Shown in pieces: positions 3,389 through 26,693 of a stretch of DNA of 64,000 nt; position 1 is the first letter of the stretch, and each line of letters opens with the position of its first letter. The position numbers and the translations under genes were made by a program. The notes beneath the pieces were generated by a model. The model was given only the letters and a program-made list of their open reading frames with translations. It searched no databases and was not told where the DNA came from. Origin of the DNA: an uncultured Owenweeksia sp. (lineage in GTDB: Bacteria; Bacteroidota; Bacteroidia; Flavobacteriales; Schleiferiaceae); contig CAKZRR010000032.1 of the NCBI GenBank assembly GCA_937146805.1, positions 1 through 64,000 on the forward strand, given 5' to 3'.

Positions 3389-6103
3389 CTACTCTTCTGT
3401 CGTTGAGCCGTCACCGTCTTCTGCGGTGTTCTCTTGCTCTTGAACAGCAGTTTCTGCTTGTTCTGGCGCATCGTCTGAAATGATTAGGTTACCGTCTTCG
3501 TCGAATTCTTGTAACTCTTCCACTTCTTCAATGCGTTGTAACCCTACAACGTGCTCACCTTCTACTGTACGTATTAAGCGAACGCCTTGTGTGTTACGGC
3601 CTACTACTGACACTTCGCCTACACGGGTACGAACCAGTGTGCCTTGGTCACTAATAAGCATAATTTCATTGGTTTCGTCTACTTGAACCGCGCCAACCAC
3701 TTTACCATTACGCTCAGACACCTTAATTGATACAACACCTTGTGTCGCACGGCTCTTCGCAGGGTAATCTTCAAGCGGAGTACGCTTACCGAAACCATTC
3801 TCTGTTGCTGTCAGGATTGGGCCGTCGCCTTTAGGAACAATAAGTGATACCACTTTTTGACCATCTTGCAGACGAATACCGCGAACACCTGTGGCTGTTC
3901 TTCCCATAGGACGAAGTGCCAGAAGCTCTTCACCCGTCTCTGGGTCACGCTTAACTTCACCGGTTTCGCTGTCGCGAAGCTTCTCGTTGAAGCGAACCAC
4001 TTTACCTGCATCAGAGAACAACATGATGTCGTCATCACCGTGAGTGATATCAACACCAATCAGCTCATCACCTTCGTTCAGGTTAACGGCGATAATACCG
4101 CTTGAACGTGGGCGAGAATATAGGCTCAGGTCAGTCTTCTTCACCGTACCGTTTGCTGTCGCCATCAGTACAAACTTACCTTCTTCGAATTCTTTGATTG
4201 GAAGAATAGCAGTAATACGTTCGTTTTCTTCTAGAGGAAGAATATTTACAATTGGACGTCCACGCGCATTTCGGCTAGCAAACGGCAATTGATACACTTT
4301 CAACCAGTACAAGCGACCACGGGTTGAGAAGCAAAGTATGTGATCGTGGGTATTCGCTACCAATAATCTTTCGATGAAATCTTCATCTTTCATCTTGGTT
4401 GCTGATTTACCACGGCCACCACGACGCTGTGCTTCGTAGTCTGTAAGTTTTTGATATTTCACATAACCTTCGCGAGAAAGCGTTACTACAACATCTTCTT
4501 GCTCTATAAGATCTTCAATATCAATATCGTGACTTGCTGCCGTAATTTCAGTACGACGCTCATCACCAAATTCATCACGTACTTTTTCAAGTTCTTCTTG
4601 AATCACTTCCATCAAACGCTCTGGGCTGTTTAGGATGTGAAGAAGTTCTGCGATGATCTCTAGAAGTTGCTTATACTCTTCTAGAATTTTCTCGTGCTCA
4701 AGACCTGTTAGCTTGTGTAAGCGAAGGTCAAGAATAGCTTGCGCTTGCTGCTCAGTAAGGTAGTACTTGCCGTCGCGAATACCAAATTCTGGCATTAACC
4801 AGTCAGGGCGTGCAGCGTCATCGCCTGCGCGCTCAAGCATTTGCGCTACATCACCTAAGTCCCAACCTTGTGCTACAAGCGATTTCTTGGCGTCTGCTGG
4901 GCTTTGTGACGCTTTAATCAACTCGATAATTGGGTCGATGTTCGCAAGCGCTATCGCCAAACCTTCAAGAATATGAGCACGGTCACGGGCTTTACGTAAT
5001 TCAAAAACGGTACGACGTGTTACTACTTCACGACGGTGAAGAATAAAGCATTCTAACGTTTCTTTAAGGTTGAATACCTTAGGCTGACCGTTATCAAGCG
5101 CAACCATGTTAATACCGAATACCGTTTGAAGCTGGGTATTCGCGTATAAATGATTAAGTAGGACTTCGGCAGATTCGTTGCGTTTAACTTCGATAACAAT
5201 GCGCATACCGTCTTTATCAGACTCGTCTCGCAGTGCAGAAACGCCTTCGATGCGCTTTTCTTTTACCAGTTCAGCAATCTTTTCAATAAGACGCGCTTTG
5301 TTAACCTGGTAAGGGATCTCGTTAACAACAATGGTTTCTTTACCGTTGCTGTCAGTTTCAATTTCCGCCTTAGCACGAAGATAAATTTTACCGCGACCTG
5401 TGCGATACGCATCTTCAATCCCCTTGCGCCCACTGATCATAGCTGCCGTTGGGAAATCTGGACCTGGGATGTGTGTCATCAAGTCGTCGATGGTAATAGA
5501 CGGATCTTGAATTAACGCTACGCAGCCGTTGATCACTTCGGTGAGGTTATGTGGCGGAATATTCGTCGCCATACCAACCGCAATACCCGATGAGCCGTTA
5601 ACAAGAAGGTTAGGCACCTTCGTTGGTAATACTTCAGGAATATGCTCTGTACCATCGTAGTTAGGTACGAAATCTACGGTCTCTTTATCTAAATCGGCAA
5701 GTAACTCGTGCGCAATTTTAGCCATGCGAACTTCGGTATAACGCATCGCAGCAGCAGAGTCGCCGTCTACCGATCCGAAGTTACCTTGACCGTCTACTAG
5801 CATATAGCGAAGTGAGAACGGTTGGGCCATACGAACAATAGTGTCGTAAACTGCAGAGTCACCGTGAGGGTGATATTTACCAATTACGTCACCTACCACA
5901 CGGGCAGATTTTTTGTATGGCTTGTTAAAGTCGTTTTTCAGTTCGTTCATTGCGAACAGCACACGACGGTGCACTGGCTTCAAGCCATCTCTTACGTCAG
6001 GCAAGGCTCGCCCGACAATAACGCTCATCGCGTAATCAAGGTAAGAGTTCTTTAACTCTTCCTCAATATTAACGGGGAGGATTTCTTTAGCGTTATCAGA
6101 CAT
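3389..6103 (-). CDS. gyrA: DNA gyrase subunit A
   Basis: [74 protein letters not shown]-terminal beta-pinwheel repeats and acidic tail. Confidence 0.98.
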
Positions 6104-21092: not shown

Positions 21093-21185
21093 TTCTTAAA
21101 CTTATTTATGTTTTTTAGAGGGCGTAGAAAATCTAAAATATCTGCGCAAAACACTTTAAAAGTAGTCACTCCAAACGCTGAGTAA
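21093..21185 (+). other. 3' end of an unidentified truncated Bacteroidetes ORF
   Basis: [30 protein letters not shown]; the stop overlaps the next ATG (TAATG), as in coupled operons; the 5' part is missing at the junction. Confidence 0.5.
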
Positions 21186-21859
21186 TGAAAAAGATCGTTA
21201 TCGCAGGAGGCAGTGGTTTTATAGGGATGCACCTGGCCCAATTCTTTACCGCAAAGGGATATCAAGTTATCGTTTTAACCCGAAAACTCAATCCACACGA
21301 CAACGATATCATATATCAGTATTGGGATGGTCAACATCTGGGTGAATGGGTTTCTGCACTGGAAGGTGCAGAAACCTTAATTAATTTGAGTGGTAAATCT
21401 GTAGATTGTAGATACACCAATAGAAATAAAGCGGAAATACTTAGCTCAAGAATTCAACCCACTCAAGTATTAGGGAAAGCCATAAAATCTTTAAAACATG
21501 CACCCAAATTGTGGATCAACGCGAGTACAGCCACCATTTACAAACATTCTATTTATAAAGCCATGACGGAATCAAATGGGGATATTGGAAATGATTTCTC
21601 CATGAGCGTGGCCCAAGCATGGGAAAAAGAATTCTTTAAATGCCACACGCCTCAAACCCGAAAAGTAGCCACTCGTGTTTCTTTGGTGCTCGGTGCCAAC
21701 GATGGGGTTTATCCTGTACTCAAAAGACTTGCGCAATTTAGACTGGGTGGATCTCATGGAAATGGCCTGCAAAAATTTGCTTGGATTCATATCCAAGATT
21801 TACTTCAGGTTTTTGATTTTATCATTCAAAACGACTGGATTTTTGACAAGAAGGTGGTA
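21185..21859 (+). CDS. TIGR01777-type NAD-dependent epimerase/SDR, N-terminal part only
   Basis: [62 protein letters not shown]; the expected C-terminal DUF1731-type domain is absent. Confidence 0.85.
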
Positions 21860-22279
21860 ACGGAGCCAGGAGAATCTGAAAATTTAAAAGCAGGTCAAAT
21901 TGTATCGGCTCGTAAATTAAGAGATGAAAACTCCTTGTTACGTAGGGCTGATAAAACCTTGGTAGAAGCTAGAGACGCGCAGCCAGCAACGGCTAAGCCT
22001 ATCTTACAAGGTATTACAAGAGCCTCGCTTCAAACTAAGTCGTTCATCTCTGCAGCTTCTTTCCAAGAAACTACTAAAGTGTTAAACGAAGCCGCTGTAA
22101 ACGGTAAGCGTGATTACTTAGAAGGCCTAAAAGAAAATGTAATTGTAGGACATAAGATTCCAGCTGGTACGGGATTAAAAACCTACGAAAACATTATTGT
22201 AGGCTCACAAGAGGATTACGACCGATTAAGAGCTAGAGAAGTAGCGACTGAGTTGGAAGAAGAAGACGTAAAAAGCTAG
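21845..22279 (+). CDS. rpoC: DNA-directed RNA polymerase beta' subunit, C-terminal part only (fused in frame to the epimerase)
   Basis: [94 protein letters not shown] is the conserved RpoC C-terminus. Confidence 0.93.
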
Positions 22280-22285
22280 AAGAGT

Positions 22286-22609
22286 ATGAGCAACGATGCT
22301 AACAATACCCCTAAAGAAGGACAGTTAAACGTAGAGCTTAGTGAGGAAGTAGCCGAAGGAACCTATTCCAATTTGGCTATTATTAATCACTCGCCTAGTG
22401 AGTTTGTATTGGATTTTATTAAAGTGATGCCGGGGGTACCCAAGGCCAAAGTAAAATCGCGTATTGTGCTAACACCACAACATGCCAAACGATTTTTACG
22501 CGCCTTAACGGACAATGTGGCTCGCTTTGAAGGCCAGCATGGCGAAATTCAAGATGTGGAGCAACCCAATATTCCTTTAAATTTTGGAGGACCTACTGGG
22601 CAGGCTTAG
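22286..22609 (+). CDS. DUF3467 family protein, rpoC-linked in Bacteroidetes
   Basis: YSNLAIINHSPSEFVLDFIKVMPGVPKAKVKSRIVLTPQHAKRFLRALTDNVARFE. Confidence 0.85.
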   Translation: MSNDANNTPKEGQLNVELSEEVAEGTYSNLAIINHSPSEFVLDFIKVMPGVPKAKVKSRIVLTPQHAKRFLRALTDNVARFEGQHGEIQDVEQPNIPLNFGGPTGQA

Positions 22610-22644
22610 TTAAAGAAGCTAGACTTTAGATACTAGACATTAAG

Positions 22645-22679
22645 AACCCTGATTAGCGAAAGCTGGTCAGGGTTTTTTT
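22645..22679 (+). terminator. Terminator, repeat copy 1
   Basis: AACCCTGATTAGC-GAAA-GCTGGTCAGGGTT + TTTTT. Confidence 0.9.
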
Positions 22680-22829
22680 ATTGTGGTTTTTGGCAGCAAA
22701 GTGGGGTTTCATTTTAGGATTTTCATTTCTATTTGGGAATAAGTGTATATTCAAAAATACTGATTGTTAGTAGTTTGTAATAACGGCATGCTATTTAACT
22801 GGATAGAGTTGTAACCAAATTTTATACTT

Positions 22830-23207
22830 ATGAAAAGCAAAGTATTTATTGCTGCTGTGGCAGTATTGGCGTTGGTTTCCTGCGCTAAAAAAGAATCACA
22901 AGTGGGTGCAGGCTCTAATGTGGGTTCTTTCTCCGAAATTAAAACGCCAATGGGTTTTGATTTTTCGAGTACCCAAACTATTACTGTACAACTACCCAAG
23001 CACGAAGGAGTAGCTCCTGGCACTAGATCGATTATTACGATTGAAGATGCGGAAGGCAATGCCCTTTTAAAGTACAATGCAGATCTTTCTCAAGAGACAA
23101 CCTTACCACTGGAATTACCAGCCACTACAGATGAGCTGTTTTATACCAGTACTTCGGGTTTAAGAGAAACGATTAAAATTTCGAACAAAATAGCCACCTT
23201 TAAATAA
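22830..23207 (+). CDS. Small lipoprotein, module copy 1
   Basis: MKSKVFIAAVAVLALVSCAKKESQVGAGSNVGSF; lipobox LVSC; paralogous to 24848..25231. Confidence 0.8.
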   Translation: MKSKVFIAAVAVLALVSCAKKESQVGAGSNVGSFSEIKTPMGFDFSSTQTITVQLPKHEGVAPGTRSIITIEDAEGNALLKYNADLSQETTLPLELPATTDELFYTSTSGLRETIKISNKIATFK

Positions 23208-23215
23208 AACCTAAC

Positions 23216-24622
23216 ATGAAAAATACAGTTAAACTTTTTGCAGTTGTGCTCCTATTTTCATTAGGATACACAACTAAGGCGCAATTTCATCACGATTTCT
23301 CTCTAAGCAGTACTATCGAAGACTATAGTTCTAATTGGTATTCAGACGATGCGGGGTGTTTTTTACGATCTATTAAGAATGGCGCGGATCATATTTATTA
23401 CTATGATTTAAGCGTGGATGGTGTGAGGAACGCGGGAAGCTCACTAGTTGTTCGTACTCCAGTAATGAGTTTCAATGGTAACTTTGATATTACTATTGAA
23501 TACACATTTGCGTCCTCAAGTTCTTTCACAGTTTGGACAAACTTTGCGGTGCCCCCGGGGCCATCAAGTTGGACGAATGGTGATTATACGTATAATGTTC
23601 CTGGTACTAATGGCGCTAGGTCATCCTATACAATTAGGTCCAGTTCACTTACAGGAAGTTATCGTCCTTTAATTCAGTGTTTACAAGCAGGTGTTATTAT
23701 TCACTCTATAACCATTACTAATGTAGTTTACGCACCGGGTCCTGGTTGTTCAGTAACCAATGGCGGTGGCTGTACGGATAGTGATACCGATGGAGTATGT
23801 GATGATGCGGATGATTTTCCAAATGATCCAGACAAAGCCTTTAGCGCTGTAATGCCACAAAAGAACTGGATGTATGAAGATTTATATCCTAATTACGGAG
23901 ATTTTGATTTTAACGATTTGGTAGTATCATCAGAAAGAGAAGTGATTACCGATGCCGATAACATTTTACGTGTGTTAAAGGTAAAAGCCACTGTATCTGC
24001 TGCTGGTGCTGCCATTAGCCAAGGTTGGGCCTTAGAGCTTAAAGGCATTAGCCCAAGCGATGTACTAAGTGTAAACGGTAACAGCCTTACGGAAGGTGTA
24101 TTGGTTATGGGTGCCAACGGTACTGAGAATGGCCAAACCAATGCCGTAATCCCGATGTTTGATAATTTCAAAACGATAAGTAACAACAACGGAAGCCAGT
24201 TTTTAAACACGGTTAAAACCGATGCGATGGGTACCAGTACACCAGTTGAAGTAGTAATTGAGTTTGCTAAGGGAAGTGAGTTAGGTCGCGAAGATTTGGA
24301 CTTTAACTTCTTCTCTTTTAGAACGAATGACCGTGGTCATGAGATACATGAAATGGGCTTTACCCCAACCGATTTAGCCAACAATGCTTTATTTGGTACG
24401 GGTAAAGATGCTACCGATTTAAACAATGGTGCTTCTTATGTATCAGTAGATGGTTTTCCATGGGCTATTTCAAGTATGGGAGGTGATTATGCTATCGAAA
24501 AAGTAGACATGGTACAGGGCTTTTTAAAGTTTGCGGCTTGGGCTCAAAGTGGAGGTGTATCTTTTCAAGATTGGCACACCAACATGAGTGGTACCTACCG
24601 TAATGCGGCTAATATTTATTAG
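23216..24622 (+). CDS. LruC domain-containing secreted protein, copy 1
   Basis: DSDTDGVCDDADDFPNDPDKAF (TSP3-like Ca-binding); NWMYEDLYPNYGDFDFNDLVV (LruC domain). Confidence 0.85.
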   Translation: MKNTVKLFAVVLLFSLGYTTKAQFHHDFSLSSTIEDYSSNWYSDDAGCFLRSIKNGADHIYYYDLSVDGVRNAGSSLVVRTPVMSFNGNFDITIEYTFASSSSFTVWTNFAVPPGPSSWTNGDYTYNVPGTNGARSSYTIRSSSLTGSYRPLIQCLQAGVIIHSITITNVVYAPGPGCSVTNGGGCTDSDTDGVCDDADDFPNDPDKAFSAVMPQKNWMYEDLYPNYGDFDFNDLVVSSEREVITDADNILRVLKVKATVSAAGAAISQGWALELKGISPSDVLSVNGNSLTEGVLVMGANGTENGQTNAVIPMFDNFKTISNNNGSQFLNTVKTDAMGTSTPVEVVIEFAKGSELGREDLDFNFFSFRTNDRGHEIHEMGFTPTDLANNALFGTGKDATDLNNGASYVSVDGFPWAISSMGGDYAIEKVDMVQGFLKFAAWAQSGGVSFQDWHTNMSGTYRNAANIY

Positions 24623-24664
24623 TACTAGATATTAGAAGCTAGACTTTAGATACTAGACATTAAG

Positions 24665-24700
24665 AACCCTGATTGGCGAAAGTTGGTCAGGGTTTTTTTT
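24665..24700 (+). terminator. Terminator, repeat copy 2
   Basis: AACCCTGATTGGC-GAAA-GTTGGTCAGGGTT + T-tract. Confidence 0.9.
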
Positions 24701-24847
24701 GTGGATTTCAGCCTCAAAGTGAGGTTTCATTTTAGGATATTTATTTCTGTTTGGGAATACTTCCTATATTAAAAATACTGATAATGAATGTCTTATGTGA
24801 ATGGCACGTTATTTAGCCTAGTACGGATGTATACAAATTTCTTACTC

Positions 24848-25231
24848 ATGAAAACCAAATTATTTATTGCGGTATTTGCCGTGTTAGCTTTATCATCTTG
24901 CGCTAAAAAAGAATCGCAAGTGGGCGCAGGTTCCCATGTAGATTCTTTTACCGAAATTAAAACGCCAGCAGGCTTTAATTTTTCGAGTACTCAGACCATC
25001 ATTTTTAAGGTGCCGGCCATTCCAAATATGCCGCCTAAAGCGATGTCTTTAGTTACTATTGAAAATGCCAAGGGGATAACACTTTTAAAGTACAATGTAG
25101 ATTTAGCTATAGGTTTAGAAATGCCTTTAACGATAACAGCGGGTACTAAAGAGTTATTTTTAGTACGTGCAGATGGCAGTAAACAAGCTTTGGAAATTTC
25201 AGGAAATGAACTAACGCTAAACTCTATTTAA
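24848..25231 (+). CDS. Small lipoprotein, module copy 2
   Basis: MKTKLFIAVFAVLALSSCAKKESQVGAGSHVDSFTEIKTPAGFNFSSTQT; start placed at ATG 24848 rather than 24788. Confidence 0.8.
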   Translation: MKTKLFIAVFAVLALSSCAKKESQVGAGSHVDSFTEIKTPAGFNFSSTQTIIFKVPAIPNMPPKAMSLVTIENAKGITLLKYNVDLAIGLEMPLTITAGTKELFLVRADGSKQALEISGNELTLNSI

Positions 25232-25232
25232 G

Positions 25233-26636
25233 ATGAAAAGTTTAAAATTAATTTTAAGTGCGGTTTTGGCGATTAGTTTAGGCGCTGAAACCAATGGGCA
25301 GTTTAGTGATGACTTTAGTACACCGACTTCCTTTGTGAATTTTACGCCACCTTACATTTCAACGCATGCGGGTTGTTATCAACGTATTGGGCAGAATAGG
25401 TTTGGTGTTTACGATGCTAACACACAGGCATTTGTGGCCTCAAGTAATTTATACCTTATGACGCCAGTTGTAGATTTTAAACCTAATTGGACGGTTGAAT
25501 TAGACATTAGCGCAGCCAGTTACCCCTATTCTGATATTTTCACGTTTTACATTATTAGTCCTCAAGGCGGCTTTATTGATATTCCGGTTAGTGTTAATAT
25601 TACCAGAAGAGATACTATTGTAATAACAGATCAAATGTTTACGTCTGCTAATAGAGCGTATCGAGGCATGGGAAGACCCTATTTAGCCCTTTTACGAGGG
25701 CCTGTAGCTTTACATACTCTTGATATGAGTAATGTCATCTATTCTCCAGGGCCTAATTGCACGGTAGTTAGTACTGGGGGAGGCTGTGCCGATGCTGATG
25801 CTGATGGGGCCTGTGACGATGTAGATGATTATCCGAATGATCCAGACAAAGCGTACAGCTCTATGCTACCGCAAATGAACTGGATGTATGAGGATTTATA
25901 TCCTAACTACGGAGATTTTGATTTTAATGATATGGTAATTTCATCTGAAAGAGAAATGATTACGGATGCGGATAACATTTTACGTGTATTAAAGGTAAAA
26001 GCCACTGTGTCTGCTGCGGGTGCTGCCATTAGCCAAGGTTGGGCCTTAGAGCTTAAAGGTATTAGCGCTAGCGATGTACTAAGTGTAAACGGTAACAGCC
26101 TTACTGAGGGTGTACTAACTATGAACGCCAATGGTACCGAGAATGGTCAAACCAATGCAGTAATCCCGATGTTTGATAATTTCAAAACGATAAGTAACAA
26201 CAACGGAAGCCAGTTTTTAAACACGGTTAAAGCTGATGCCATTGGTAGCAGTACTCCTTTAGAAGTAGTGATTGAGTTTTCTAAAAACAGCGATTTATCT
26301 GTAAGAGATTTAGATTATAACTTCTTTTCTTTTAGAACAAACGATCGTGGTCATGAGATACATGAAATGGGCTTTACGCCAACCGATTTAGCCAACAATG
26401 CTTTGTTTGGCACGGGTAAAGATGCTACCGATTTAAACAACGGAGCATCGTATGTATCAGTAGATGGTTTTCCATGGGCTATTTCAAGTATGGGAGGTGA
26501 TTATGCTATCGAAAAAGTAGATATGGTACAAGCCTTTTTAAAGTTTGCGGCTTGGGCTCAAAGTGGCGGTGTTTCTTTTCAAGATTGGCACACCAACATG
26601 AGTGCTACCTACCGTAATGCGGCTAATATTTATTAG
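25233..26636 (+). CDS. LruC domain-containing secreted protein, copy 2
   Basis: DADADGACDDVDDYPNDPDKAYSSMLPQMNWMYEDLYPNYGDFDFNDMVIS; C-terminal half nearly identical to copy 1. Confidence 0.85.
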   Translation: MKSLKLILSAVLAISLGAETNGQFSDDFSTPTSFVNFTPPYISTHAGCYQRIGQNRFGVYDANTQAFVASSNLYLMTPVVDFKPNWTVELDISAASYPYSDIFTFYIISPQGGFIDIPVSVNITRRDTIVITDQMFTSANRAYRGMGRPYLALLRGPVALHTLDMSNVIYSPGPNCTVVSTGGGCADADADGACDDVDDYPNDPDKAYSSMLPQMNWMYEDLYPNYGDFDFNDMVISSEREMITDADNILRVLKVKATVSAAGAAISQGWALELKGISASDVLSVNGNSLTEGVLTMNANGTENGQTNAVIPMFDNFKTISNNNGSQFLNTVKADAIGSSTPLEVVIEFSKNSDLSVRDLDYNFFSFRTNDRGHEIHEMGFTPTDLANNALFGTGKDATDLNNGASYVSVDGFPWAISSMGGDYAIEKVDMVQAFLKFAAWAQSGGVSFQDWHTNMSATYRNAANIY

Positions 26637-26658
26637 TAGCTAGACTTTAGACATTAAG

Positions 26659-26693
26659 AACCCTGATTGGCGAAAGCGGATCAGGGTTTTTTT
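26659..26693 (+). terminator. Terminator, repeat copy 3
   Basis: AACCCTGATTGGC-GAAA-GCGGATCAGGGTT + T-tract. Confidence 0.88.

Follow-up and report, generated by a model that had tools for sequence, protein, structure and literature searches.

The window considered here, a stretch of 64,000 nucleotides from an uncultured Owenweeksia sp. (Bacteroidota; GenBank assembly GCA_937146805.1, contig CAKZRR010000032.1), contains between positions 22,614 and 26,693 two tandem units of approximately 2 kb, each composed of a gene for a small lipoprotein and a gene for a protein with an LruC domain (DUF4842). The array is a real and recurrent two-gene version of a known family whose function is unknown, and the genetic evidence for a partnership between the two products is clear. 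An earlier inspection of the DNA, made without database searches (the sequence-only reading), had described two such units with three terminators, the last of them shortened; the sequence, the open reading frames (ORFs) and the repeats agree with that description.

Composition of the array

All features lie on the forward strand, and the order within a unit is terminator block, spacer, lipoprotein, LruC protein. The first terminator block (22614..22679), a 16-bp hairpin with a GAAA loop followed by a run of T, is located 3' of an rpoC tail (21839-22279) and a DUF3467 gene (22286..22609), which together mark the conserved site of the array. Next come a conserved spacer (22680..22829), a putative promoter or 5' untranslated region, the first small lipoprotein (22830..23207; 125 aa, CAKKES...), a homologue of the N-terminal anchor domain of single-chain LruC lipoproteins, and the first LruC protein (23216..24622; 468 aa). 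The latter comprises a signal peptide judged by eye (23216-23284), a variable, jelly-roll-like middle domain (23285-23749), an Asp-rich loop (23750-23851) and the LruC/DUF4842 domain itself (23852-24619). The second unit consists of a terminator block (24634..24699) that is 97% identical to the first, a spacer (24700..24847), a lipoprotein of 127 aa (24848..25231; the listed ORF begins at 24788, the start equivalent to copy 1 being 24848) and an LruC protein of 467 aa (25233..26636). Lipoprotein 2 is 54% identical to lipoprotein 1, and the second LruC protein is 26% identical to the first in the middle domain and about 91% in the LruC domain. A shortened third terminator block (26628..26693; aligned part 26635-26693, 77-83% identity) closes the array.

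The terminator block measures 66 nt, with copies starting at 22614, 24634 and, in shortened form, 26628. Its 30-nt hairpin occurs three times in the window, against 0.00 expected, and three times in the whole 3.16-Mb assembly, every occurrence falling inside the array; the folding energy is -22 to -25 kcal/mol per copy (z -6.6 to -7.3). Matches to Rfam at the terminators were all below threshold and, for this reason, no RNA family is claimed. The spacer between terminator and lipoprotein is conserved (77% then 63% identity between copies), as the sequence-only reading had held, and a promoter of its own for each unit is plausible. A sigma-70 scan, which does not cover Bacteroidota promoters, gave fewer sites than shuffled sequences.

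Conservation of the site

The array site was compared with three genomes of the same genus (G001, G002 and G003). G002, on a single contig, shows the order rpoC, DUF3467, lipoprotein and LruC twice, and radical SAM; G001 has one unit at the same site and G003 two units in a different context. The gene order of the window matches that of G002, plus two extra genes ahead of the radical-SAM gene. The copies share only 54% identity between their lipoproteins and 66% between their LruC proteins, from which it follows that the tandem copy is not an assembly duplicate; with this divergence and the same array on the single contig of G002, an artefactual duplication is ruled out. A wider form of the same doubt is that the tandem copy or its context arose from a chimeric contig. 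The contig is chimeric elsewhere, its genes being gammaproteobacterial as far as about 20.9 kb and yfcH being joined to RpoC near 21,839, but the array itself sits within a block syntenic with G001 and G002, and its copies are much too diverged, so that we consider this explanation extremely improbable.

Architecture of the LruC proteins

Both LruC proteins are well-supported members of their family, scoring 166 and 171 bits against PF16130 (cut-off 22) and 200 and 205 bits against TIGR04456 (cut-off 36). The C-terminal ED-P-GD-D-ND signature is present, and residues E221, D222, P225, G228, D229, D231, N233 and D234 are invariant across 64 sequences. The loop between the middle and LruC domains, DxDxDGVxDxxDxxPxDP, is nearly invariant; judging from this conserved motif, it may bind calcium, as had been proposed earlier. 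In the AlphaFold model of LruC protein 1, the LruC domain is well defined (predicted local distance difference test, pLDDT, mostly above 90) and the middle domain is a jelly roll of moderate confidence. Foldseek placed PDB entry 3oqq nearest to this protein, followed by meprin (a MAM-containing protease), CBM6, CBM35 and other sugar-binding entries.

The window LruC proteins possess a signal peptide, again by eye, and lack both a lipobox and the anchor domain, the two features that the neighbouring gene supplies. Pfam and NCBIfam scans of the LruC proteins found DUF4842/LruC only and no type IX sorting domain of the Por_Secre_tail type; export of the LruC protein by the type IX route was accordingly dropped. 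Weak matches to DUF4114 or DUF7467 appeared in some LruC relatives in these scans.

The small lipoprotein as a putative detached anchor

No Pfam or NCBIfam family matches the small lipoproteins above cut-off. A PDB sequence search with the lipoprotein profile returned only signal-peptide and ubiquitin-like noise; hence, the anchor domain is left without an assigned fold family. When relatives were searched with lipoprotein 1, the matches included separate small genes as well as the N-terminal parts of open frames 540-860 aa long, and these frames are LruC proteins. In a model of a natural fused LruC relative, the anchor folds by itself into a beta domain (pLDDT above 84 for most of residues 30-110); the middle region is of low confidence in this model, from which the interface between anchor and LruC domain is unreadable.

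A census was assembled from loci of related genomes and 80 named public-genome loci, classified by anchor-domain and LruC-domain profiles after the removal of duplicates. It yielded 117 classifiable Bacteroidota LruC genes, with 15 further ones cut at contig ends or unclassified, among them a frameshifted LruC gene with a lipoprotein upstream (L054) and, in an array ordered lipoprotein-LruC-LruC, the second LruC gene (L056). The single-chain form, with an N-terminal anchor domain of approximately 110 aa and, in nearly all cases, a recognisable lipid cysteine, accounts for 86 of the 117. The other 31 LruC genes have no anchor domain, which is instead encoded by a separate gene directly upstream, at a gap of -4 to +34 nt in 30 pairs and of 197 nt in one pair whose start is doubtful. 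At one further locus, also among the 15, the order is reversed, with the LruC gene first and the anchor lipoprotein immediately downstream (L151:3392-5328). At additional loci the small gene also adjoins LruC proteins of 657 and 1490 aa, and the split rule is thus independent of length. The split state occurs in Flavobacteriales, in one Bacteroidales metagenome-assembled genome and in one Chitinophagaceae isolate (Limnovirga soli), and on the LruC tree the split or fused state changes at least six times, three of these changes being forced by starred branches. Thermaurantimonas aggregans LA (L116) and Limnovirga soli KCS-6 (L150) are culturable organisms with a split pair.

By this comparison of sequences, the small lipoprotein is the detached anchor domain of an LruC lipoprotein. 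The fixed pairing put forward in the sequence-only reading is strongly supported by this neighbourhood survey and finds its explanation here: the lipoprotein is paired with LruC because it corresponds to the detached N-terminal domain of the single-chain proteins. Since anchor and LruC have repeatedly been split or fused, the two halves most likely act as one unit.

Two neighbourhoods stand out around single-chain genes. In five relatives (L066, L069, L071, L072 and L078), an LruC lipoprotein gene directly follows what appears, by sequence motif only, to be a family-2 glycosyltransferase gene, a possible link to polysaccharide. At six others (L057, L060, L062, L064, L065 and L068), long LruC genes (approximately 735 aa, that of L057 seemingly broken) follow a small conserved gene reading SLKEFYPFYLSEH...HFIGTGLV, an arrangement that recurs in this family.

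Evolution of the tandem units

Identity between the two copies changes markedly along the unit: 93% in the terminator, 77 and 63% in the spacer and 76% in the 5' half of the lipoprotein gene, then about 50% in its 3' half and about 40% in the middle domain, and about 90% in the LruC domain. Synonymous divergence (pS) between the window copies is 0.30 (95% interval 0.23-0.38) in the LruC half versus 0.73 (0.62-0.83), saturated, in the jelly-roll middle, and between the G002 copies 0.31 versus 0.67. In orthologues from different species, synonymous sites are saturated in both parts alike, which indicates that the LruC half is under no special constraint at these sites. The contrast between the halves is therefore more than an effect of protein-level selection. 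The G003 copies show no such homogenisation in the LruC half (pS 0.70); the process is therefore not constant in time.

Phylogenetic trees show the same division. For the LruC domain, the window pair clusters together with support of 100/100 and the G002 pair with 93/92; the approximately unbiased (AU) test rejects a grouping by position (p 2e-47), whereas the middle domains tend to cluster by position, those of copy 1 being grouped. The terminators are likewise homogenised within a genome: the outer terminators of G002 are identical over 28 nt, recur nowhere else in G002 within two mismatches and differ from those of the window genome.

The most economical reading of these patterns would be an old duplication, after which the units recombined with each other repeatedly across the LruC half and the array borders. 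The earlier suggestion of recombination at the terminator blocks can be retained in modified form, as a process that homogenises the LruC-coding half and the terminators, while the duplication itself looks old. A recent simple tandem duplication was rejected, given that half of the unit is saturated at synonymous sites. The main rival to concerted evolution is cassette swapping, in which the unit was duplicated recently and the lipoprotein-tail and middle-domain cassette of one copy was then replaced by diverged DNA. Such an event would give the same divergence profile; moreover, the middle domain of window copy 2 has no close relative, and a sister relation between the two middle domains of the window is not rejected by the AU test (p 0.078; for G002, p 0.023). 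Set against this, the middle domains group by position, lipoprotein 2 resembles lipoprotein 2 of G002 (52%) more than it does the copy-1 lipoproteins in other species (36-41%), and the same pattern is found independently in two species. We accordingly rate cassette swapping as rather unlikely.

A proposed two-gene LruC lipoprotein system

Our favoured interpretation, which we hold to be probable, is that each unit encodes an LruC lipoprotein system divided between two genes. The small lipoprotein would serve as the outer-membrane anchor of this 'split' lipoprotein; the LruC protein, which has a signal peptide of its own for export, would then dock on it non-covalently and present the MAM/CBM-like jelly-roll domain, followed by the Asp-rich loop and then the LruC domain. 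Duplication of the unit would have occurred early in the genus, after which recombination within each genome homogenised the LruC-coding half and the terminators as the C-terminal half of the lipoprotein and the middle domain diverged. With one half homogenised and the middle diverged, a single cell would have two presenters that share a constant domain and display different binding faces. A more far-reaching version, tentative and on balance doubtful, is a constant-variable-constant system, in which the LruC domain and the borders are kept uniform and the anchor tail and binding domain diversify as a matched cassette on a common scaffold. If true, each cell would carry a set of surface binders with different targets, whether glycans, prey, phages or grazers.

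Several observations sit uneasily with the proposed complex. Genome G006 contains a lone lipoprotein (L165:783-1142), an extra lipoprotein copy (L051:1705-2070) and a partnerless LruC gene (L167:2617-7242). Together with the reversible gene order of L151, its lone genes are what might be expected if the products were two separate envelope proteins of one regulon, linked without forming a complex and fused merely for convenience of co-expression. We find this improbable, as the anchor domain occupies one fixed position in the 86 fused LruC proteins and is absent where it is encoded next door, and as the state has changed several times independently. Among 27 thinned split pairs, distances between lipoproteins correlate with those between LruC domains (Spearman 0.43; none of 500 permutations as high), although this correlation derives partly from shared descent. 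In the same pairs, the lipoprotein correlates with the middle domain at 0.54, and the LruC domain with the middle domain at 0.32, which hints that the anchor may contact the middle domain; common ancestry and linkage could equally produce this result.

The direction in which the pair faces is a second point of difficulty. The LruC protein is neither lipidated nor a type IX substrate, and lacks a known surface-export signal, so that the pair could face the periplasm. In Capnocytophaga, the surface-export signal of lipoproteins is C-X-K-(D/E)2-X (PMC5080379). After the lipid cysteine, Lys occurs at +3 in 28 of the 31 small lipoproteins and Asp or Glu at +4 in 25, and most of them thus resemble this signal closely. 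Those of the window, however, are imperfect, reading CAKKES, with the lipobox and the +3 Lys present, Lys in place of Asp or Glu at +4, and Glu at +5. The model of the middle domain is itself of moderate confidence (pLDDT about 54-80, with residues 31-66 below 50). A pair residing on the inner face of the outer membrane, where it would serve envelope structure instead of surface binding, nevertheless seems unlikely: most LruC lipoproteins, whether small or fused, have residues like the export signal, folds of the jelly-roll and sugar-binding-like kinds typify surface proteins, and DUF4842 is C-terminal in ice-binding proteins (PMC9957290) and present in an outer-membrane protein of Leptospira to which host components bind (PMC8280789). 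The sequence-only reading had envisaged a surface anchor with an exported, calcium-binding partner; its pairing stands, its account of the array's evolution is incomplete, and an anchor with an exported partner is the best, though inferred, reading of the pair.

As separate observations, the partnerless LruC protein of G006 has 1542 aa and no anchor, and the extra anchor copy is nearly identical to the paired one; the lone anchor, the lone LruC protein and the extra copy might act in trans.

Relation to known proteins and significance

The function of DUF4842/LruC, a widespread domain with reported occurrences in Bacteroidota, Leptospira and marine Gammaproteobacteria, is unknown. The closest comparison is with the single-chain Bacteroidota LruC lipoproteins (TIGR04456/DUF4842), which share the N-terminal anchor domain, the C-terminal LruC domain, the variable middle and similar residues following the cysteine; the window differs in having two genes, two signal peptides, an LruC protein that is not a lipoprotein, and a tandem unit. 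BACOVA_00967, a putative lipoprotein of Bacteroides ovatus (3oqq), represents the only solved LruC/DUF4842 fold found, and is the best match of the LruC protein by sequence (E 3.8e-23) and by fold (E 5e-9). Unlike the window proteins, it is a single chain; its function is unreported, and the likeness seen is that of the LruC/DUF4842 fold. Leptospira LruC and LIC13086 contain the same domain and are reported outer-membrane lipoproteins (PMC8280789, PMC9901810); they are spirochaete single chains, comparable by the shared domain only, and the accessible parts of these reports describe no separate small lipoprotein gene. Ice-binding proteins, akin to those of the window, place a variable binding domain ahead of a C-terminal DUF4842 whose function is called unknown, but the binding domain is DUF3494 and not a MAM/CBM-like jelly roll, and a separate anchor is undescribed (PMC9957290).

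A literature search, with subscription journals outside its coverage, found neither a description of the two-gene form nor a paper treating LruC together with Bacteroidetes, and the split pair looks like an undescribed two-part cell-surface system. The separate anchor gene gives DUF4842/LruC a concrete and testable partner and narrows the question to a pair of soluble pieces that can be assayed for binding. The pattern of homogenised scaffold and divergent face also offers a way to test which part of the protein is diversified by selection.

Other observations on the contig and assembly

The window looks chimeric: genes from position 1 to approximately 20.9 kb are of gammaproteobacterial type (BamC/NlpB, purC and others), and those from 21185 to 64000 are of Bacteroidota. 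Positions 21185-22279 form a single frame that runs from the first ~218 aa of a yfcH-type oxidoreductase into the last ~146 aa of RpoC; a misjoin near 21,839 is the most likely cause. The assembly contains three GyrA/ParC-type genes, one of them at 4586-6010. A second, different rpoC (a 1448-aa frame, 78% identical in the shared part) lies at the end of another contig, C13, of the same assembly, in which more than one Bacteroidota organism is therefore probably mixed.

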